NCBI GenBank assembly: GCA_025928885.1
Contig: JAICIM010000004.1
Coordinates: 1 to 34,931, forward strand
DNA from: Ktedonobacteraceae bacterium
GTDB taxonomy: Bacteria > Chloroflexota > Ktedonobacteria > Ktedonobacterales > Ktedonobacteraceae
Direction of reading: 5' to 3'
DNA length: 34,931 nucleotides
In this document: one piece after another, positions 6,709 to 31,008 of the stretch
Layout: the number at the start of each line of letters is the position of its first letter
Numbering within the stretch: the first letter of the stretch is position 1
Program-made: the position numbers and the translations under genes
The notes under the pieces: model-generated
Told to the model about the DNA's origin: nothing
Seen by the model: only the letters and a program-made list of their open reading frames with translations
Databases searched by the model: none

Positions 6709-6741
6709 GTTATTTGAATCATAATTTGCAATTATGATTCA
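6693..6741. promoter_or_regulatory. Three-copy operator-like repeat (16-mer TTGCAATTATGATTCA)
   Basis: Copy A is on the minus strand at 6708-6693. Copy B is on the minus strand at 6731-6715 with one extra base. Copy C is on the plus strand at 6726-6741. B and C form a perfect 12-bp inverted repeat (6715-6726 and 6730-6741, spacer TGC). Copy A overlaps the -35 and spacer of the predicted sulfurtransferase promoter; the B/C palindrome lies just upstream and touches the stop codon of the ABC ATPase gene. The AT-rich dyad resembles Fur-family (Fur/Zur/PerR) boxes in style, but no regulator is assigned. Confidence 0.65.
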
Positions 6742-8094
6742 TTCGGGGGTGAATTGCGGTTCTATGGGGAGGGCGAGGCACTTTTTGACCATTTCAAGTG
6801 CTTCTCCTATTGATTGTACCACGACGGCATTAGATTGCAAGAGTATCTCCAGTGCTTTTATGCCCTCGCCCTGTGTATAATCACGAGCGGCGAATTCGCG
6901 GCGATACTTCCTCTCATGTGCCTCTTCCGATGCCACTTGCTGAGCAGAGGGAGCAACCAGCAGAAGCACGGGCAACCCATGACGAGCCGCCTGTGCAACT
7001 TCTTGCAGCAGGGGCAGGTTTCCCGGGCCAATGGGAGTGGGGCAGAGAATGAGCAACGATGCATGAGCAAGGCTGTTGCGAACCTGTGTCAACACCTCTG
7101 AGGAAATAGGGGCGTACGGCTGCTCCGTAATCACCTCGTCGGCTAAACGCAGAGCCAGTGTATGATCGCTATCGCCAATATTTAAAGCACCAGCAACAAA
7201 AGGAATGTGTGCATCGGCCAGCGCACGCATCAAGACCTCTCCACTGCCACCACCCGCCATCACATGCACATGCGATACATCGTTCCTCTCTTCTGGCTCT
7301 GACTGCATTTCACCAGCTGGCGGCAAGACGCTGAGATGGGCAGCGCCGCGCAAAATGCCGACCTGCACATTGACCCCATAGACGCGCCGCAATAATCCCG
7401 TCTCCAACACCTCAGCAGGCCCGCCATCAGCCACAACGCCACGTTGGAAGAGCAACAAACGCGGAAAGTATCGCGCGGCCAGATTCAAATCGTGAATGGC
7501 GGCAATCACAGTCACGCCGCGCTCTCGATTCAGCCTTTGCACCAGTTCCAGCGTCTCGATCTGATATTTGATGTCGAGGTGAGAGGTTGGTTCATCGAGC
7601 AGCAGCACACGCGGTTGTTGGGCCAGCGCCATTGCAATCGTCACGCGCTGCCGCTCTCCACCGCTCAACTCGTTAAAAATACGGTCTGCCATAGCCCCGA
7701 CTCCAGCGGCGTCGATCGCATCCTGCATAATCACCTGATCCTGGCGCGAGTGAGAGCCAAAGAAGGATGTAATAAAAGGCGTTCTTCCCAGGCTGACCAT
7801 ATGCTCGACGGTAAAGGCAAAGGGAACATGTAGCTCCTGTGGCACCAGGGCGATGCGCTGCGCCACCTTTTTGCGCCCCCATTGCTTCAAGTCGCGCTCC
7901 TCCAGCAAAATCTGCCCCTGCTGTGGCTGCAAGAATCCACTCATCAGGCGCAGCAGCGTCGTCTTGCCAGAACCGTTTGGTCCCAGCAATCCCACCATCT
8001 CTCCGGGCTGCACCTGGAGCGCAACGGTGTAGAACAGCGGCTGCGCATCATACCCGAAGGTGACATCGCGCACCTGTAAGACCGGCGCTACCAT
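6739..8094 (-). CDS. FecE/BtuD-type ABC transporter ATPase with extra C-terminal domain
   Basis: Residues 1-255 are the ATPase of an iron-siderophore, heme or cobalamin importer: Walker A GPNGSGKT (38-45), Q loop LVPQE, signature LSGGERQR (143-150), Walker B VLLLDEP (163-169) and H-loop AAIHD. Residues about 274-440 form a second domain, starting VHVMAGGGSGEVLMRALAD and containing ALNIGDSDHTLALRLADE. It resembles extensions I know from some BtuD-like ATPases of clostridia, archaea and Chloroflexi, with no role known to me. The gene overlaps the permease stop by 7 bases (ATGGTAG) and has GGAGGG 7 bases before ATG, indicating translational coupling. No substrate-binding protein gene is next to it. 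Confidence 0.9.
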   Translation of the reverse strand: MVAPVLQVRDVTFGYDAQPLFYTVALQVQPGEMVGLLGPNGSGKTTLLRLMSGFLQPQQGQILLEERDLKQWGRKKVAQRIALVPQELHVPFAFTVEHMVSLGRTPFITSFFGSHSRQDQVIMQDAIDAAGVGAMADRIFNELSGGERQRVTIAMALAQQPRVLLLDEPTSHLDIKYQIETLELVQRLNRERGVTVIAAIHDLNLAARYFPRLLLFQRGVVADGGPAEVLETGLLRRVYGVNVQVGILRGAAHLSVLPPAGEMQSEPEERNDVSHVHVMAGGGSGEVLMRALADAHIPFVAGALNIGDSDHTLALRLADEVITEQPYAPISSEVLTQVRNSLAHASLLILCPTPIGPGNLPLLQEVAQAARHGLPVLLLVAPSAQQVASEEAHERKYRREFAARDYTQGEGIKALEILLQSNAVVVQSIGEALEMVKKCLALPIEPQFTPE

Positions 8095-9197
8095 CGATAA
8101 TCCCTCCGACTTCTACGCAGCAGCAGCAGGAAAAATGGCGCTCCCACCAGAGCCGTAAAAACGCCGACGGGAAGCACTGCTGGAGCCACAACGATGCGTG
8201 CCAGTAGATCGGCAACGGTGAGGAAAATAGCGCCGCCAAGAGCAGAGGCCGGGAGCAAGGTGCGATGGTTGGGACCCAGCAGCAAGCGCATCACATGGGG
8301 CGTCACCAATCCAACAAAGCCAACCAGCCCGCTAATCGAAACGGCAGCGGCGGTCAGGCACGATGCGGTCACGACGATCACAAACTTGTAGCGCTCGACA
8401 TTCAATCCCAGATGACTTGCGCTCTCCTCTCCCAATGCCAGGCTATCCAGCACACGGGTGAGGCTCAGCGCCAGCGCCATCCCCAGCACCACGACAATAG
8501 CCACGCTGCCCAGAGGCAACCAGGTCGTTACCTGAATGCCGCCGGAGAGCCAGTTGAACAGCGCTTGAAGCTGGAACTCCTCGCGCGGGAAGAGCGCCAG
8601 GATCAGCGTTTGCAGCGCCACCAGCACAGCATTGACCACAACGCCTGCCAGCAACAACGTGACGACAGGAGTGCGCCCACCACTCCGCGCAATGCCATAG
8701 ACAAAAAATATGGTTACCAGTGCGCCAAGAAAAGCCAGAGCCATCGTCAGCGGAAAGAAGGTGCCATAGAACGTGGCAAAGGGCAGCACGAAGGCAATCG
8801 TCGCCCCCAACGCCGCGCCAGACGATGTGCCGATCAGAAAGGGATCGGCGAGGGGATTGCGCAGCATCCCTTGAAACAGCACGCCCGAGACCGCCAGAGC
8901 TGCTCCAACCAGGGCCGCACCGATAACAACTGGCATCCGCACCTGCCAGACGATAATCTCGACGGTCGCATCCCATTGCCGCACAAAGTGGAATAGCCCG
9001 GTGCCATTTAACAGGATACGCACAATGACAGGAAAAGGAATAGAGACGGAGCCAAAGCTGGTGGCCAGCACAATTGTTGTCAGCAATAATCCAGATAGAA
9101 TCACGTAGATCAAGATGTGAGAGAGCCGTTGCCGCTTTTTCAGCGAATGCTTCGGCTCCAAACCGCGTGTCGCCTGTTTCTGTGTTGCCAATTTCAT
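8088..9197 (-). CDS. FecCD/BtuC-family ABC transporter permease
   Basis: A 369-residue integral membrane protein with about 9-10 hydrophobic helices, preceded by a basic N-terminus (KLATQKQATRGLEPKHSLKKRQR). Family marks: WQVRMPVVIGAALVGAALAVSG with GVLFQGMLRNPLADPFLIGTS soon after, and GFVGLVTPHVMRLLLGPNHR in the C-terminal half. It forms the channel of a metal-chelate (siderophore, heme or cobalamin) importer with the ATPase encoded immediately after it. The ATG at 9197 is preferred because GACGAGG lies 6 bases upstream; the longer form would need TTG at 9212. A promoter with a palindrome lies at 9230-9273. The exact substrate cannot be told. Confidence 0.92.
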   Translation of the reverse strand: MKLATQKQATRGLEPKHSLKKRQRLSHILIYVILSGLLLTTIVLATSFGSVSIPFPVIVRILLNGTGLFHFVRQWDATVEIIVWQVRMPVVIGAALVGAALAVSGVLFQGMLRNPLADPFLIGTSSGAALGATIAFVLPFATFYGTFFPLTMALAFLGALVTIFFVYGIARSGGRTPVVTLLLAGVVVNAVLVALQTLILALFPREEFQLQALFNWLSGGIQVTTWLPLGSVAIVVVLGMALALSLTRVLDSLALGEESASHLGLNVERYKFVIVVTASCLTAAAVSISGLVGFVGLVTPHVMRLLLGPNHRTLLPASALGGAIFLTVADLLARIVVAPAVLPVGVFTALVGAPFFLLLLRRSRRDYRW

Positions 9198-9229
9198 TGC
9201 ATGCCTCGTCAAGAATAAAGGACATAGGG

Positions 9230-22933: not shown

Positions 22934-25162
22934 ATGAGAGATGGCGAAGCCGCACAACGCACAGCCGCCAGAAGCCTCGGTCGCTACCAGATTATCAGGC
23001 GCATCGGCAGAGGAGGGATGGGGGATGTATGGCTCTGCGATGATCCACGCCTGCATCGTCAGGTCGCCATTAAAACCTTGCCAGCTCAGAGCCAGCAGGA
23101 TCGCGAATTCGCTCAGCGCTTCGAACGAGAGGCTCAGGCATCAGCAGCGCTCGGTCATCCACACATTCTCCCTATCTATGACTATGGCGAACAACCCACC
23201 ACCAACGGGCAGATCATTACCTATATCGTCATGCCTTATATTTCAGGTGGCTCCCTGACAGAACGCATCGTCGCCTATCAATCGCAACACATGCTCATGC
23301 CGCCCCAGGAGGCGATCGCATATCTCTTACAGGCAGCCGAGGCGACTGATTACGCCCATGCGCAGGGAATTGTTCATCGCGATATTAAGCCCGGCAATAT
23401 GCTCTTGCGCGACGAGCGCTGGCTGTTGCTCACCGATTTTGGCATTGCTCAGATCCTCTCTAACGCGGAAAATGTGACGCAAACCGGCGCTGGCATCGGT
23501 ACCCCTGAATATATGGCCCCGGAGCAAGCGGAAGGCAAGGCAGAAGCCGCCAGCGATCTCTATAGCCTGGCCGTGCTGGCCTACTACCTTCTCGCAGGCC
23601 ACCTCCCATTCAATGCCGAAACAAGCTATGCGACAACCATCCAGCACATGACTATGCCACCTCCACCACCGCGCCAATTCAATCCAGCCCTCCCACCGGC
23701 ATTTGAGGCGGCGCTGCTGCGCGGACTCGCCAAACATCCCGCAGAGCGCCCGGCCTCGGCACGCGTATTTGTGGCCTCCTTGCAACAGGCATGTGCTGGA
23801 ACTCCCTTTGAGGCATTTATGGCCTCCGCAGCACACGCTCCTGTTTCCGCCGGGCAACCCAATACCTTCTCAACGATCACACAACCAACCATACCCGAAC
23901 TCAACAAGCAACCAGAGACGGATCAGAACACCCCTGCCCACCAGCCAGGAAACAGTCCTTTTTCTCGGCGCCAACTCATCATGGGTGGCAGCGCCGCGCT
24001 GCTGGTCGCGGGAGGACTGGGTACATGGGCAGTTGTCGCAAAATTTCACCAGACCACAACTCAGAAGGCACAAACCAGCTCGCCAGCACCAACGCCCAAT
24101 CCCAATGGCCCTGATCTGATCCTCCAGGGACATCTCAAGCCAGCCAGCTCGCTTGCCTGGTCGCCAAAAAAAAATGTGCTGGCCTCTATAGCCGATCAGG
24201 ATGATTTACTGCTCTGGGATATCACCAGACAACAAAGCGGCTCGCCTGACCCAATAGCGAGGCGCAAAGCGCGTAAAGGCAGTGCGATGCTGCTCTCCTG
24301 GTCGCCCGATGGCAGTATGCTGGCACTGGCAAACACGGGAGAAGAGCCGATCAGCCAGGACAACGCCTCGATCGATTTCTACACCAGCGATGTCAGCAAA
24401 TTCACTCCAGGTTTTACTAGCTATGCGGCGGGCGAGGGGACCTCTACAGTCTCAGGGATGTGCTGGGCCAACAAAACCACGCTGGTGACAGTGACACGTT
24501 CGCCCCTCAACAGCAACGATTCTAACCATTTTCGTCTGTGGGCAATGGATATCACGCAACCCAATCAACCCATCAAAGCAATTCCAATCGCAGGTTCGCT
24601 GGGAGACGGCTTCACCCTGAACACGCCTCCACAACAACTGGCAACATCGCCGGATGGAGCATTTATTGCGATCTCGTTATACAATACAATCGCCATCGGC
24701 AAGGTGAGTCTGGCTGCCAATACGGTGCAATGGCAACAAACCTCCACGCTCCAATTTGAGAAGAACGCATTTGCACAATCCACGGGTGTCTTCTGGGAAC
24801 CAGATGGGCGCAACGTCGGAACGTTTTATCAATCCAACGTCTCAAGCATCTATCTCTGGAACTGGCAAAACAACCAGAGCACGCCGATCAAAGAATTCGA
24901 TACCGACGCGAAGCTGATCACAATGGCGTGGTCGCCCGCACCGCAACATCCGCTGTTTGCAACGGCCTCTATGGATGGAAAAGTGCAGATCTGGAATCCG
25001 AACAAAGGCACCACTCCGGTGGGAACGCTCAATGGTGGCGATATCAGCAATAAAAAGGTCACGTCCCTGGCCTGGTCGTCTGATGGACAATGGCTGGCCG
25101 CCGGATATGACGACAATGACACGAGCATCCTTGTCTGGAACATACAGAGACGAGGATTTTGA
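22934..25162 (+). CDS. Transmembrane Ser/Thr kinase with WD40 propeller (paralog 1)
   Basis: A 742-residue protein. Residues 17-290 are a PknB-type kinase: IGRGGMGDVW (P-loop), Lys47 in VAIK, HRDIKPGN (148-155), DFG (168-170) and APEQ (195-198). All catalytic residues are present. A Pro/Gln/Thr-rich linker runs to about 342. Residues 344-368 read SRRQLIMGGSAALLVAGG plus more hydrophobic residues, a membrane helix preceded by a twin-arginine-like block (R345-R346). Residues 395-742 are WD40 repeats (for example VTSLAWSSDGQWLAAGYDDN). The propeller should be outside and the kinase inside. GAGG lies 10 bases before ATG. It is followed by two paralogs; substrates and the sensed signal are unknown. 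Confidence 0.92.
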   Translation: MRDGEAAQRTAARSLGRYQIIRRIGRGGMGDVWLCDDPRLHRQVAIKTLPAQSQQDREFAQRFEREAQASAALGHPHILPIYDYGEQPTTNGQIITYIVMPYISGGSLTERIVAYQSQHMLMPPQEAIAYLLQAAEATDYAHAQGIVHRDIKPGNMLLRDERWLLLTDFGIAQILSNAENVTQTGAGIGTPEYMAPEQAEGKAEAASDLYSLAVLAYYLLAGHLPFNAETSYATTIQHMTMPPPPPRQFNPALPPAFEAALLRGLAKHPAERPASARVFVASLQQACAGTPFEAFMASAAHAPVSAGQPNTFSTITQPTIPELNKQPETDQNTPAHQPGNSPFSRRQLIMGGSAALLVAGGLGTWAVVAKFHQTTTQKAQTSSPAPTPNPNGPDLILQGHLKPASSLAWSPKKNVLASIADQDDLLLWDITRQQSGSPDPIARRKARKGSAMLLSWSPDGSMLALANTGEEPISQDNASIDFYTSDVSKFTPGFTSYAAGEGTSTVSGMCWANKTTLVTVTRSPLNSNDSNHFRLWAMDITQPNQPIKAIPIAGSLGDGFTLNTPPQQLATSPDGAFIAISLYNTIAIGKVSLAANTVQWQQTSTLQFEKNAFAQSTGVFWEPDGRNVGTFYQSNVSSIYLWNWQNNQSTPIKEFDTDAKLITMAWSPAPQHPLFATASMDGKVQIWNPNKGTTPVGTLNGGDISNKKVTSLAWSSDGQWLAAGYDDNDTSILVWNIQRRGF

Positions 25163-25250: not shown

Positions 25251-27506
25251 ATGAACGACGGTGACATTATGACAACAACCAGCTTAGGACGCTATCGTTT
25301 GCTCAAGCAAATCGGCAAGGGTGGCATGGGTGAAGTCTGGTTGGGCGAGGACCCGCGCTTACATCGTCAGGTCGCCATCAAAACTCTGCCAGTACAGAAG
25401 CAACAGAATAATGAGTTTCTGCTTCGCTTCGAGCGGGAGGCGCGTGCCGCCGCCGCGCTCAACCACCCCCACATTCTCCCTATTCACGATTTCGGCAAAC
25501 AGAACTTGCCCGACGATGAAGTCATCGCCTACATCGTTATGCCCTACATCACCGGGGGAACGCTCGCCGATCGCATCGACACACACACAGCCAATCAAAC
25601 GCTGATGCCACAACAGGAAGCCCTGGCATATCTTGCACAGGCGGCGCAAGCGATTGATTATGCACACAAACACAGTATTATCCACCGCGACATCAAACCG
25701 GCCAATATGCTCTTGCGCCACGATAATTGGCTGCTGCTCGGGGACTTCGGCATTGCGCGTCTCCTCTCCAGTACTGACAACCTCACGCGCACGGGTACTG
25801 GCACCGGCACCCCTGAATATATCGCGCCAGAACAGGCACAGGGGAGAGCAGAGGCCGCCAGCGATATCTACAGCTTAGCCATTCTTGCCTACTACCTTTT
25901 TACTGGAAAATTACCCTTTAAAGCGATCTCCCGCTATGGCACGATAGTACAGCATATCACTTCCTCGCCGCCACGGCCACGACAGATCAACCCGGCCCTC
26001 ACGCCTGAACAGGAGCTAGCGTTACTCCACGGTCTGACCAAACAGCCAGGGGAACGGCCATATTCGGCCAGAGAGCTGGTGGAAGAGCTACAGCAAGCAG
26101 CGGGCTACACATCGTTGCCCGGCCCTTCTACGAGTGCGCTCTCGCAACCAATCATTCCAGCACACAATCAGCAACCCATCACCGGACAACCTCACCAACC
26201 TCCGCTCAACCAGAGCGATGTCTTTCCAGAGGCAGCACATACATCCCAAATACGACAAGGAACATTCCATACCAGAGATGAAGCCCCGTCTCACCTACGA
26301 GACCCCCACACAACAAAAGCTAAATATGTGTCCCAAGCACAAGCAATTGCACCTGTTGAAGCAAGCAAACCAGTGCCAGCACAGATTTCACGGCGCTCTC
26401 TCTTCATTGGAGGAGGCGCAGCCCTTGCCCTCTTAGCGGGAGGCGTGAGTACATGGGCTTTTCTCAGCAACAGACAAAAACCTGAGCAAACTGGGCAACC
26501 CACCACAACCACTGCTGATCCCAATGGGCCGGATCTGATTCTGCGTGGGCATACAAAACCTGTCACCTCGCTGGCATGGTCTGCTCAATCACATCTCGCA
26601 TCAGCGGGCGAAGATGGCACGGTCCTGCTATGGACGCCACAACAGGGTACTCGACCTGCTGCCAGCGCCCGACAAACATTTCATACCACCAACCCCTTAC
26701 TCCTCTCCTGGTCTCCTGATGGGCAATGGTTGGCAATTGGCAATACAGGGCAGGGAACGTCGGCCTCGCTTGAGCTATATAGCAGCGACCTGCACACAAC
26801 GGCCCCTGGCTATAACACAGGAATATCTGTTCCCGGCACAACAGCCATCGCTGGCCTCGCCTGGCAGAATCGCTACCTTACAGCCGTAGGAGAGAAGCCG
26901 CTCCATCTGCATATCTGGAATACCCAGGAGCCGCAACGGCAGTTCGCTCCAATCGCGCTTCCCGGCACCCTTGCCACAACGCTATCGACCAGATCACCGC
27001 TACTTCTAGCCTCGCCTGACAGCACCCTGCTAGCGCTGGCTGAGGCTGAGGGGGTCATTACAGGACAGATCAAGCTCTCTGGCACAATGGCGCAATGGCA
27101 GCAGGTATTAAGCCCGGTCAAGCTCGATGGACACATCAAGGCTATAAGCTGGATGTCCAGCGGAACCGTCATGGGCGCACTCACCACCACAAACGAGCGG
27201 ACATTCTCCCTGGCACTCTGGACGCGGCAAAAACTGGAGCAGGACCTGCTCCCCACCGATGCAATACTCACCACGCTGGCATGGTCGCCTGCTGCAACAA
27301 GCGATCTCCTCGCCACTGGCAGCAAAGATGGACAGGTATTGCTCTGGAAATACTCAGGCAGCAATATTCCCGCACACCTGGATAGCAATTTGCAGGCAGA
27401 GGTCATCAGCCTGGCATGGTCGCCCGATGGGCAATGGCTGGCCGCTGGCTTTAACGATAAAGATGCAAGTATTCTGCTTTGGAACATACAGGGACGAGGA
27501 TTCTAA
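25251..27506 (+). CDS. Transmembrane Ser/Thr kinase with WD40 propeller (paralog 2)
   Basis: A 751-residue protein of the same plan as paralog 1. Kinase at 14-285: IGKGGMGEVW, Lys44, HRDIKPAN (145-152), DFG (165-167), APEQ (192-195). The linker is longer (about 286-379). The membrane block is SRRSLFIGGGAALALLAGG (380-398, twin Arg at 381-382), ending near Asn407. WD40 repeats cover about 428-751, and the final repeat (VISLAWSPDGQWLAAGF to GRGF) is almost identical to that of paralog 1, evidence of tandem duplication. AGGAAA is about 9 bases before ATG. It starts 88 bases after paralog 1 and ends 5 bases before paralog 3, so the three may share a transcript. Confidence 0.92.
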   Translation: MNDGDIMTTTSLGRYRLLKQIGKGGMGEVWLGEDPRLHRQVAIKTLPVQKQQNNEFLLRFEREARAAAALNHPHILPIHDFGKQNLPDDEVIAYIVMPYITGGTLADRIDTHTANQTLMPQQEALAYLAQAAQAIDYAHKHSIIHRDIKPANMLLRHDNWLLLGDFGIARLLSSTDNLTRTGTGTGTPEYIAPEQAQGRAEAASDIYSLAILAYYLFTGKLPFKAISRYGTIVQHITSSPPRPRQINPALTPEQELALLHGLTKQPGERPYSARELVEELQQAAGYTSLPGPSTSALSQPIIPAHNQQPITGQPHQPPLNQSDVFPEAAHTSQIRQGTFHTRDEAPSHLRDPHTTKAKYVSQAQAIAPVEASKPVPAQISRRSLFIGGGAALALLAGGVSTWAFLSNRQKPEQTGQPTTTTADPNGPDLILRGHTKPVTSLAWSAQSHLASAGEDGTVLLWTPQQGTRPAASARQTFHTTNPLLLSWSPDGQWLAIGNTGQGTSASLELYSSDLHTTAPGYNTGISVPGTTAIAGLAWQNRYLTAVGEKPLHLHIWNTQEPQRQFAPIALPGTLATTLSTRSPLLLASPDSTLLALAEAEGVITGQIKLSGTMAQWQQVLSPVKLDGHIKAISWMSSGTVMGALTTTNERTFSLALWTRQKLEQDLLPTDAILTTLAWSPAATSDLLATGSKDGQVLLWKYSGSNIPAHLDSNLQAEVISLAWSPDGQWLAAGFNDKDASILLWNIQGRGF

Positions 27507-27511
27507 AAATT

Positions 27512-29989
27512 ATGCTGACAAATCAAATGATAGATTGGCAAGGGGGAATGCTCGGGCGCTATCGCATGATACGCCTGCTGGGACGCGGCGGCATGGGCGA
27601 GGTCTGGTTGGCGGAAGATACTGAGCTACGCCGCCAGATCGCCGCCAAACTCTTGCCGTCCGTACTGGCATCTGACGAAAGCTATCTCCACGCATTTGAG
27701 TACGAGGCACGCACCGCCGCCGCGCTGGAACATCCCCATATCCTGCCCATTCACGACTTCGGAGAACAACACATCGCCGATGATGAAGTCGTCACCTACC
27801 TGATTACGCCCTATATGGCTGGTGGCTCTCTGCGCGACCTCTTACGCGCAACCACACACGTCCTTCCTCCACACGAGAGCCTGAACTATCTCAAGCAGGC
27901 CGCTCAGGCCATAGACTACGCACATAGCCAGAATGTCCTTCACCGCGACATCAAACCGGCCAATATGCTGCTTCAGGAAGGATGGCTCTTCCTCGCCGAT
28001 TTCGGCCTCGCTAAATTACTGAGCAGCGAGACGCAGCGCACCCGCACACATACAGGCTCCGGGACTCCCGAATATATGGCTCCTGAACAGGCGCAAGGCC
28101 ATGCCACTCCTGCCAGCGATCGCTACAGCCTGGCAATGACAGCCTACCAGATGTTAACGGGCGCCCTCCCCTTCAGAGGAGATAGCCCCTATGAAGTGCT
28201 CATCAAACAGATTAAAACGGCTCCACTCGCACCCACGCAATGGAATCCAACGCTCCCTCTGGCTGTCGAAGAGCTTCTCTTGCAGGGATTGGCAAAACGG
28301 CCCGAAGATCGGCTCTCAACATGTGTTGCTTTTGTCAATGCATTGGAACAGGCATTCGCTCCGTCACAACAAGCCATGTTAGACGATGCAGAGGTCACGC
28401 TCCCGGCCCCCTGGAACAAGCGCCTGCACAAAATAGTATTAACATCTCCATTACAGCAGCCGCTGACACCAACATTCACCACTCAGGACGCCTCGCTCTC
28501 GCAAACACCAACACAACCCTCTCTGTCGTCTCAACTTTCCCTACGGCGAGAACAAACAGTAACAACCCCCTCACATATCGGCTATCCCGTTACCCCCGAC
28601 CCTATCGTTGAGCCACAGCAAAACACTTACTCACCCACGCTTCACTATCCCCCTGTCCAGGATGCGCCAACACGGCAGGAGGGAACGCCTCCTCCGCAAG
28701 AACCAAAACGCAAGATTGGTCGCCGCGAACTGGTCATAGGGGGCAGTACCGCCGCTGCTCTCGCTGTTGCGGGAGGGGCCTCGTTCTTGATCTGGCAACA
28801 TACCAGTTCAACACCGGCATTGCTAGAGAGAGCTATTCCCGGCCCCCAAAAGCTCATGCCAGGGGTGCCACTCTTAAATATTACTCGCCATTTGCGCACC
28901 GTCTATAATGCCGTCTGGGACCCAACGGGACGCTATCTCGCCACGGCTGGAGAGGATCAAACGGTCATGCTCTGGGACGTGGGTAGCTATCTGGCAAAAT
29001 CGCCAAAAGAGGTCCAGACGCTCACAAAACCTGTACGCCGTTGGAGGCTGCCAGGCACAATTTTCAGCAATGCGCTGAGCTGGTCTTATGACGGACGCTA
29101 CCTCGTTGCAACGCCAGTCACAGGCGCAAATCAGATATTTCTCCTGGATGTTTTCGGCAAAGCCGACGATCCCATTATTTATAAAGACGGCAGCAAAACC
29201 GATGATATTGGCGGTCCCGATTTTTTATATAACGCCTGGTCGCCCACAACGAGTACATTTGCCGCCGCCGTCTCCAATACACAGAATGTGCTGCTCTGGC
29301 AACTCAAGCAACCAAACACGCCGATCAAAACGCTCTATAACGATCAGGGACCGCGCAAAGTCGATGGGGTAGCAATCTCAGTCGGCAATCTGGCCTGGTC
29401 AGCGGATGGAATGCTACTGGCGACGATGACCAATAACTTCAATCTGGCTATCTGGGACGTGAAAACAGGCAAGGTGAAATACTACATCAATGTCCCCGAC
29501 GCGCCCCTCACGCTACCTCCTGGCACACATGCCATTTTCGTGCTTCGCGATGCAATGCAATGGTCGCCGGCAGACAACCGCCTGCTCCTTGCCACCAATG
29601 CCAATATCGTGAACGTCTGGGACGTGCAGCAGGCAAAAAAACCGCGCTGGCAGCTTGGCACCAATGACAAAGACGCGCTGACGCCACCGCCCAACAATGA
29701 TACAGGGCTGGGCTTCAAATGGAATCCCAACATCACTGGCGTTAGCTGGTCGCCCAATGGACGCTATCTGACGGGCGGCTACGGGCGGAGCCACAAGATC
29801 CATATCTGGGATTTGCAGGAGAAAAAACCTGTCGTCTCCAAAGGGATACAAATGCCTAGCCTCCTCTTTGGAGAGTACAATGGACATGGCGACACGGTGA
29901 CCGATACGAGGTGGTCGCCGAATGGGCGTTATATCGCCACCAGCTCATTTGATACTACCGTGATCGTCTGGAAGGTTGATGAAGCCTAA
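27512..29989 (+). CDS. Transmembrane Ser/Thr kinase with WD40 propeller (paralog 3)
   Basis: An 825-residue, more diverged third copy. Kinase at 15-283: LGRGGMGEVW, Lys46 (IAAK), HRDIKPAN (144-151), DFG (163-165), APEQ (190-193). The linker is the longest (about 284-402) and rich in Thr, Pro and Gln. The membrane block is GRRELVIGGSTAAALAVAG (403-421, twin Arg 404-405). The WD40 propeller covers about 445-825 with longer inserts. The start at 27512 leaves 5 bases after the stop of paralog 2; ACGAGGA lies about 12 bases upstream, inside that gene. A longer reading from 27479 would overlap paralog 2 and is less likely. Co-translation with paralog 2 is probable. Confidence 0.92.
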   Translation: MLTNQMIDWQGGMLGRYRMIRLLGRGGMGEVWLAEDTELRRQIAAKLLPSVLASDESYLHAFEYEARTAAALEHPHILPIHDFGEQHIADDEVVTYLITPYMAGGSLRDLLRATTHVLPPHESLNYLKQAAQAIDYAHSQNVLHRDIKPANMLLQEGWLFLADFGLAKLLSSETQRTRTHTGSGTPEYMAPEQAQGHATPASDRYSLAMTAYQMLTGALPFRGDSPYEVLIKQIKTAPLAPTQWNPTLPLAVEELLLQGLAKRPEDRLSTCVAFVNALEQAFAPSQQAMLDDAEVTLPAPWNKRLHKIVLTSPLQQPLTPTFTTQDASLSQTPTQPSLSSQLSLRREQTVTTPSHIGYPVTPDPIVEPQQNTYSPTLHYPPVQDAPTRQEGTPPPQEPKRKIGRRELVIGGSTAAALAVAGGASFLIWQHTSSTPALLERAIPGPQKLMPGVPLLNITRHLRTVYNAVWDPTGRYLATAGEDQTVMLWDVGSYLAKSPKEVQTLTKPVRRWRLPGTIFSNALSWSYDGRYLVATPVTGANQIFLLDVFGKADDPIIYKDGSKTDDIGGPDFLYNAWSPTTSTFAAAVSNTQNVLLWQLKQPNTPIKTLYNDQGPRKVDGVAISVGNLAWSADGMLLATMTNNFNLAIWDVKTGKVKYYINVPDAPLTLPPGTHAIFVLRDAMQWSPADNRLLLATNANIVNVWDVQQAKKPRWQLGTNDKDALTPPPNNDTGLGFKWNPNITGVSWSPNGRYLTGGYGRSHKIHIWDLQEKKPVVSKGIQMPSLLFGEYNGHGDTVTDTRWSPNGRYIATSSFDTTVIVWKVDEA

Positions 29990-30063
29990 CACAGAGGGCC
30001 AGCAGGGCATATGCTATAATGGCGCATGGCCGGAAAGATCATCGTCTTTTGAAAGGAACTGCT

Positions 30064-31008
30064 ATGCGCGTTGTCTCTCTTCTGGCAAGCGCGACAGAAA
30101 TGATTGCCGCGCTCGGTTGCCTCGATCAGCTCGTAGGGCGCTCTCACGAATGCGACTATCCATCTGAAGTGCTGCAATTGCCGCTGGTCAGCACTGTACA
30201 AATCGATGTCAACGCAACCAGCGAGCAGATTGATGCGCAGATCAAGCAGCTTGCACGCACAAAGGATGCCGTCCGGGACAATGCGCTCAAGGCGCTGAGC
30301 ATCTACGCCATCGACACCAACCTCTTGCAACAGTTGCAGCCAGACATCATCTTTACACAAACACAGTGCGAGGTCTGTGCAGTTAGCGAGCGTGACGTAC
30401 TCCAGGCATTGCAGCAAGTTGCGAGCATTCAACCGCGTATCGTCTCTCTCGCCCCCTATTGTCTCAGCGATGTCTGGGTAGACCTGATACGTGTTGGAGA
30501 GGCGCTGGAGCGCAAAGAGCAGGCACAACAACTGGCGAACAAGTATCAGGAAAGGCTGAACCTGTTGGCGCAGACGACGGCTACATTGGGAGCCAAACCG
30601 CGCGTCGCCATCCTGGAATGGCTTGATCCACTGATGGCGGCGGGAAACTGGACGCCAGAGTTGCTCAACTATGCTGGCGGCTCGACGGTCTTTGGCAGGG
30701 TCGGAGAGCATTCGCCCTGGCTCACCTGGGAAGAATTGAGAGCCGCCAATCCCGACGTGCTGATACTTTCCCCCTGTGGCTTCGCGCTGGAACGCACCAT
30801 GCAAGATATCTCCCTCCTGCAACACCACCCACTCTGGCCGGAGCTACAAGCGGTACAACAGCAGCGTGTCTACGCCATCGACGGAAATTATTACCTGAAC
30901 CGCTCTGGTCCGCGACTGGTAGAATCTGCTGAGCTGCTGGCGCACGTGCTGTGGGGAGAACGTCTGACCATCAATGTGGATGAAACGGCCTGGAGAAGCA
31001 TCATATAA
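30064..31008 (+). CDS. BtuF-like cobalamin-binding protein without signal peptide
   Basis: A 314-residue member of the periplasmic-binding-protein-like (BtuF/FecB fold) family. Family text: MRVVSLLASATEMIAALGCLDQ, RSHECDYP, IFTQTQCEVCAVS with two conserved cysteines, and VAILEWLDPLMAAGNWTPELL. Unlike true BtuF, it begins right at the folded domain, with no signal peptide or lipobox, so it should be cytosolic. This cytosolic branch is widespread and usually labelled cobalamin-binding; its role is not settled. ATG 30064 is preferred for AAAGGA 7 bases upstream; a 15-codon extension from 30019 is unsupported. It starts 74 bases after the third kinase and could be an operon tail. Confidence 0.87.
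   Translation: MRVVSLLASATEMIAALGCLDQLVGRSHECDYPSEVLQLPLVSTVQIDVNATSEQIDAQIKQLARTKDAVRDNALKALSIYAIDTNLLQQLQPDIIFTQTQCEVCAVSERDVLQALQQVASIQPRIVSLAPYCLSDVWVDLIRVGEALERKEQAQQLANKYQERLNLLAQTTATLGAKPRVAILEWLDPLMAAGNWTPELLNYAGGSTVFGRVGEHSPWLTWEELRAANPDVLILSPCGFALERTMQDISLLQHHPLWPELQAVQQQRVYAIDGNYYLNRSGPRLVESAELLAHVLWGERLTINVDETAWRSII

Follow-up and report, generated by a model that had tools for sequence, protein, structure and literature searches.

A probable internal twin-arginine signal-anchor in transmembrane kinases of Ktedonobacteria

Introduction

Ktedonobacteria are a class of soil bacteria. In the stretch of DNA analysed here (the window; 34,931 nucleotides of contig JAICIM010000004.1, from a member of the Ktedonobacteraceae), three tandem genes, designated K1, K2 and K3, encode proteins in which a kinase domain is joined to a WD40 propeller by a linker and a membrane helix. 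A twin-arginine (RR) block precedes each helix, and the original prediction read this block as a Tat signal, with the WD40 propeller folding inside and being exported while the kinase stays in the cytosol. WD40 propellers need no cofactor and have no general need for Tat. Known internal Tat signals come after Sec helices, mostly in cofactor proteins (PMC5449189). Is the RR block of these kinases a Tat signal, or is it the basic flank of an ordinary membrane anchor?

Results

Three tandem kinase-WD40 genes

Pfam places Pkinase at the N terminus and WD40 at the C terminus of K1, K2 and K3 (Table 1). The kinase motifs VAIK/IAAK, HRDIKPxN, DFG and APEQ are all intact; with these motifs and a helix after the kinase domain, the three proteins are Hanks-type transmembrane Ser/Thr kinases. 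Linkers of about 70–130 residues lead from the kinase to one single helix, immediately preceded by [S/G]RRxhhhGG. The sequences and positions of the block predicted before this sole helix were confirmed, and the span 23962–24040 first given for K1 proved correct to one base (the block starts at 23963 and the helix ends at 24040). RR starts at residue 345 in K1, 381 in K2 and 404 in K3 (counted from the ATG), an internal position unlike that of N-terminal Tat signals. The AlphaFold2 model of the C-terminal part of K2 contains 28 strands, forming seven four-stranded blades, with mean pLDDT of 81, and Foldseek matches this model to WD40 proteins in the PDB, e.g. Cdc20, RACK1 and G-beta.

Table 1. 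Coordinates of K1, K2 and K3 and their parts in the window
Feature	Position	Strand	Evidence or remark
K1: Ser/Thr kinase - linker - RR helix - WD40 propeller, 742 aa	22934..25162	+	ORF; Pfam Pkinase + WD40
K1 kinase domain, PF00069 match, probably cytosolic	22985..23647	+	Pfam; catalytic motifs
K1 twin-arginine block SRRQLIMGG, residues 344-352	23963..23989 (RR 23966-23971)	+	
K1 weakly hydrophobic Gly/Ala-rich helix QLIMGGSAALLVAGGLGTWAVVA, hydropathy 1.73	23972..24040	+	
K1 WD40 domain, proposed exported cargo	24104..25159	+	Pfam, WD40 searches
K2: kinase - linker - RR helix - WD40 propeller, 751 aa	25251..27506	+	ORF; Pfam
K2 kinase domain	25293..26030	+	PF00069 match
K2 twin-arginine block SRRSLFIGG, residues 380-388	26388..26414 (RR 26391-26396)	+	
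K2 weakly hydrophobic helix SLFIGGGAALALLAGGVSTWAFL, hydropathy 1.83	26397..26465	+	
K2 WD40 propeller, seven blades predicted	26523..27503	+	Pfam, AlphaFold2
K3: kinase - linker - RR helix - WD40 propeller	27512..29989	+	ATG 27512; upstream TTG 27479 also possible
K3 kinase domain	27560..28324	+	PF00069 match
K3 twin-arginine block GRRELVIGG	28718..28744 (RR 28721-28726)	+	residues 403-411 from ATG 27512; 414-422 from TTG
K3 weakly hydrophobic helix ELVIGGSTAAALAVAGGASFLIW, hydropathy 1.66	28727..28795	+	
K3 WD40 domain	28898..29986	+	Pfam

A gene for a protein of the periplasmic-binding type (Peripla_BP_2; 30019–31008) begins 30 bases past K3 and may be co-transcribed. Elsewhere in the window, FecCD permease and ABC ATPase genes occupy 6739–9212 of the opposite strand, and an IS605 OrfB/TnpB-like gene, which encodes a Cas12f1-like TNB domain, is found at 472–1674 of the minus strand.

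The RR pair is invariant across the class

WD40 kinases of the class were collected by WD40-domain searches together with the best 70 kinase matches of a second genome, taken unselected, and helices were assigned from hydropathy profiles rather than by a trained predictor. The set comprises 65 helix-bearing WD40 kinases (60 distinct proteins; 52 clusters at 50% identity). In all 60 distinct proteins, RR is found no more than 16 residues ahead of the helix defined by hydropathy, so the block is more than a chance similarity. The original prediction survived its own test, conservation of RR beyond a general positive-inside pattern: RR is invariant in 52/52 clusters and K never takes the place of R. 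S or T is at −1 in 44 of the 52 clusters; V, L or F is mostly found at +3, L or I at +4, and G at +6 and +17. The upstream linkers are unconserved: columns −14 to −8 carry information near background, while RR is kept. An alignment of K1 and K2 orthologues, which are 28–39% identical to K2, has 22 invariant columns, and RR belongs to them.

Charge alone does not explain the pair, because R and K occur at similar frequencies outside it: only 47% of the basic residues near RR, the pair itself excluded, are R. If basic charge alone were responsible, RR in 52/52 clusters would have a probability of about 10^-34, an approximate value calculated without regard to shared descent. Just behind the helix, where dual Sec/Tat proteins carry additional positive charge, basic residues average 1.5 in the WD40 set versus 0.9–1.0 in other kinases, a difference that speaks clearly neither way.

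The RR block is absent from 15/15 helix-less WD40 kinases examined. Two further WD40 kinases, scored as helix-less because of one Glu in the helix and found by eye, also carry RR, and the segment for which L021 was scored as helix-bearing is a linker without RR. Cys content, considered as a marker of export, is the same in helix-bearing and helix-less WD40 domains. In tandem kinase-WD40 arrays, some WD40 matches cross one in-frame TAG or TGA stop (G033:C1:321450, G034:C1:5335200 and G032:C9:578093); these could be merged neighbouring matches or broken copies.

Comparison with Tat signals

Tat h-regions are less hydrophobic than Sec ones, with more Gly and less Leu; exchange of RR for K is hardly tolerated in Tat signals, and E. 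coli Sec signals contain an Arg pair only very rarely (PMC7317946). The WD40-kinase blocks of the class fit the Tat consensus S/T-RR-x-h-h followed by a weakly hydrophobic, Gly-rich h-region. The N-terminal Tat signals of the window's own genome are still less hydrophobic (hydropathy about 1.25), which places the internal RR helices between Tat and Sec and makes their insertion by Sec conceivable. The curated Tat HMMs TIGR01409 and PF10518 gave no significant match on the excised segments of K1, K2 and K3. The corresponding segment of a kinase-Rieske protein of the same genome (L044, see below) scored 15.5 bits, near but below the cut-off of 16.7 bits, and when the whole genome was scanned with TIGR01409, one kinase-Rieske protein was listed through its internal RR block, again below cut-off. 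The genome encodes TatC (E 4.5e-61) and two TatA-type genes.

RR and helix hydropathy follow the cargo

All 93 PF00069 matches of the window's own genome (G000) were taken, and 91 kinase reading frames were extracted. In all helix-bearing WD40 kinases among them (K1, K2, K3, L016, L023, L025 and L084), [STG]RRxhh immediately precedes a helix rich in Gly and Ala. RR together with a weak helix is found in 10/10 WD40 or Rieske kinases of this genome versus 1/35 other single-helix kinases (Fisher p = 3e-9), with median helix hydropathy of 1.86 and 2.80, respectively. In the second genome, with kinases chosen by kinase score alone, RR is present in 14/14 WD40 kinases versus 3/28 others; pooled, the two genomes give 24/24 WD40/Rieske kinases versus 4/64 other single-helix kinases. 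By cargo, median hydropathy is 1.86 for WD40, 2.02 for Rieske and 2.78–2.80 for other kinases, and Gly makes up 20–25% of the helix in WD40/Rieske kinases (25% in WD40) versus 5–10% in other kinases.

Where the C-terminal part is LamG-like, PASTA, ligand-binding or kelch (apart from kinase, WD40 and Rieske, domain names were assigned by reading the sequences), the helix is strongly hydrophobic and the motif is missing in most cases. One of the three RR exceptions in the second genome is L392 (G032), a kinase frame of 677 aa in which an SRRAVVGG helix is followed by another kind of propeller, lectin-like, with weak Pfam matches to PF03984/PF07938 (DUF346, fungal fucose lectin). Ordinary helices do occur in a small number of kinase-WD40 or kinase-kelch proteins, as well as in most of the kinase-WD40 proteins seen in other phyla (fewer than ten). 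In the class-wide set, six RR kinases that seemed to belong to the "other" group are actually WD40 kinases or their neighbours, most of them truncated at the locus edge, and for this reason the counts of other kinases are those of the two genomes' kinase sets. A contig search with the kinase-WD40 alignment returned mostly generic kinases and was kept as a control only.

In kinase-domain trees, RR kinases are interleaved with non-RR kinases, and K1, K2 and K3 form a starred clade; in the two-genome tree, cargo changes at least 12 times and RR changes 16 times. Well-supported branches provide four independent cargo contrasts, all of which agree (sign test p = 0.125); in random pairings, RR tracks cargo in nearly all and never runs opposite (median p 0.125). 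The contrast test agrees with RR following cargo rather than kinase ancestry, but weakly, because there are only four independent contrasts.

Kinase-Rieske proteins and the loss of cluster ligands

Three RR-block kinases of the window's own genome (L044/L093, L050/L114 and L072/L090) end in a Rieske domain with CxH...CxxH. A class-wide search of 47 genomes found 45 kinase-Rieske proteins, seen only in the window's own family and in most of its genomes (about 40 loci among L115–L183). Rieske matches elsewhere in the phylum are mostly shorter frames, with no kinase detected in those fetched. Some proteins of about 400–490 aa (L139, L141, L143, L160, L169 and others, as well as phylum matches) combine a DoxD/DoxX-like part (Pfam applied to L143) with an RR helix and a Rieske domain. 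This layout is that of dual Sec/Tat proteins; it is not among the families named in the accessible part of PMC5449189.

Rieske proteins are textbook Tat cargo, because their cluster is inserted in the cytosol (PMC7317946). RR is present in 42/42 kinase-Rieske proteins with intact CxH...CxxH, and their helix hydropathy is 1.5–2.5. In L156, L159, L179 and the later-found L343, both histidines are replaced (CTT...CPPD or CGAD), RR is absent and helix hydropathy is 2.8–3.0. In a Rieske tree of few columns and many open forks, these four proteins form one starred clade within the kinase-Rieske group; ligands and RR were therefore most simply lost once and together, probably as one event in one genus. 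QcrA mutants unable to bind the FeS cluster are not exported (PMC6708511). Since Tat refuses such cluster-free mutants, a ligand-less Rieske kinase would need to switch to Sec. The kinase-Rieske family and its apparent switch on ligand loss are the strongest evidence for the putative internal Tat signal.

Discussion

The RR block and helix of these kinases are, with high probability, an internal, uncleaved Tat signal-anchor through which an already folded propeller is exported and the kinase remains in the cytosol. The invariant RR, the weak Gly-rich helix, the Rieske fusions and the ligand-less relatives all favour the Tat reading of the original prediction, and we infer that K1, K2 and K3 depend on Tat. 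Specifically, the N-terminal Hanks-type kinase and linker would be synthesised first and remain in the cytosol. The C-terminal WD40 propeller, or the [2Fe-2S] Rieske domain of sister proteins, would fold in the cytosol because the helix is probably too weakly hydrophobic for efficient SRP/Sec insertion. TatC would then recognise S/T-RR-x-h-h and the helix would insert as a loop with the N terminus in; translocation of the folded C-terminal domain would leave a one-pass N-in/C-out receptor-like kinase, the topology predicted for K1, K2 and K3, in which the exported domain may serve as a sensor or adaptor.

The same topology would result from an ordinary Sec/YidC signal-anchor, in which basic residues set the N-in orientation and the WD40 domain crosses SecYEG unfolded. 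Basic residues do precede the helix in many single-helix kinases of this set, the RR helices are above typical Tat hydropathy, and WD40 or kelch kinases elsewhere have ordinary helices. Orientation by the positive-inside rule needs charge only, yet RR is invariant and never replaced by K, which is as common as R nearby; moreover, the helices are weak and Gly-rich, and the same block stands before Rieske cargo and is lost along with the FeS ligands. We therefore regard a Sec anchor as unlikely.

Two readings without any export function are less probable still. Gly-rich helices with GG spacing, common to kinases that might need dimerisation, could mark the RR-hhhGG helix as a conserved element for cytosolic or membrane interaction or for dimerisation (e.g. 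a Gly-zipper or a lipid-binding Arg pair). Such an element predicts no link to cargo type across unrelated kinase lineages, against the 12 or more cargo changes on the tree, and leaves its absence from ligand-less Rieske, LamG, PASTA or binding-protein kinases unexplained, which makes it very improbable. That one ancestral RR-helix-WD40 module was simply copied, with RR having no function, is scarcely credible: K1, K2 and K3, which share one clade, and the other WD40 kinases are indeed paralogues, yet RR was kept while the flanking linkers were randomised, WD40 and Rieske are unrelated folds behind the same block, and RR lineages are interleaved with non-RR kinases.

The proposed Tat signal-anchor has partial parallels in known systems. 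In actinobacterial Rieske proteins (Streptomyces Sco2149, QcrA) and other dual Sec/Tat proteins, as in K1, K2 and K3, an internal RR precedes the last, weakly hydrophobic helix, the C-terminal globular domain is exported and the N terminus is inside. However, two or four Sec helices come before the Tat helix of those proteins and their cargo binds a cofactor (PMC5449189), whereas a soluble kinase and linker precede the sole helix of K1, K2 and K3, whose cargo is a cofactor-free propeller; cofactor cargo is found only in the kinase-Rieske relatives. Bacterial Rieske proteins that keep an uncleaved Tat anchor at the N terminus likewise use a single Tat helix as a permanent anchor and carry the same kind of cargo as the kinase-Rieske proteins, but have no domain before the signal (PMC7317946). 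Tat tail-anchored proteins also have a single, non-N-terminal Tat helix with a domain ahead of it; there, the N-terminal folded domain is itself exported (PMC10924467), whereas in K1, K2 and K3 the N-terminal domain is proposed to stay inside and the C-terminal domain to leave. Planctomycetota transmembrane kinase-WD40/TPR proteins share the cytosolic kinase, the single helix and a WD40 domain predicted outside, and the paper describing them does not mention Tat (PMC11032199). The literature searched, from which subscription journals were mostly absent, holds no report of Tat-dependent kinases or kinase-Rieske fusions; as far as we found, an internal Tat export signal in kinases has not been described previously.

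On this comparative sequence evidence, Ktedonobacteria probably assemble a whole class of receptor-like kinases through Tat, with an internal signal-anchor that has no prior Sec helix and serves a swappable, pre-folded WD40, Rieske or lectin-like propeller cargo, and with ligand-less Rieske kinases returning to a Sec-type anchor. The ligand-loss clade would then offer a natural contrast of Tat and Sec anchors within one family, and scanning for RR helices would be a simple route to internal Tat signals overlooked by N-terminal predictors. If the proposal is correct, Tat would cope with a large folded domain ahead of its signal without the help of Sec helices, the kinase-Rieske proteins would become candidate redox-sensing receptor kinases, and Tat would build signalling receptors besides exporting redox enzymes.
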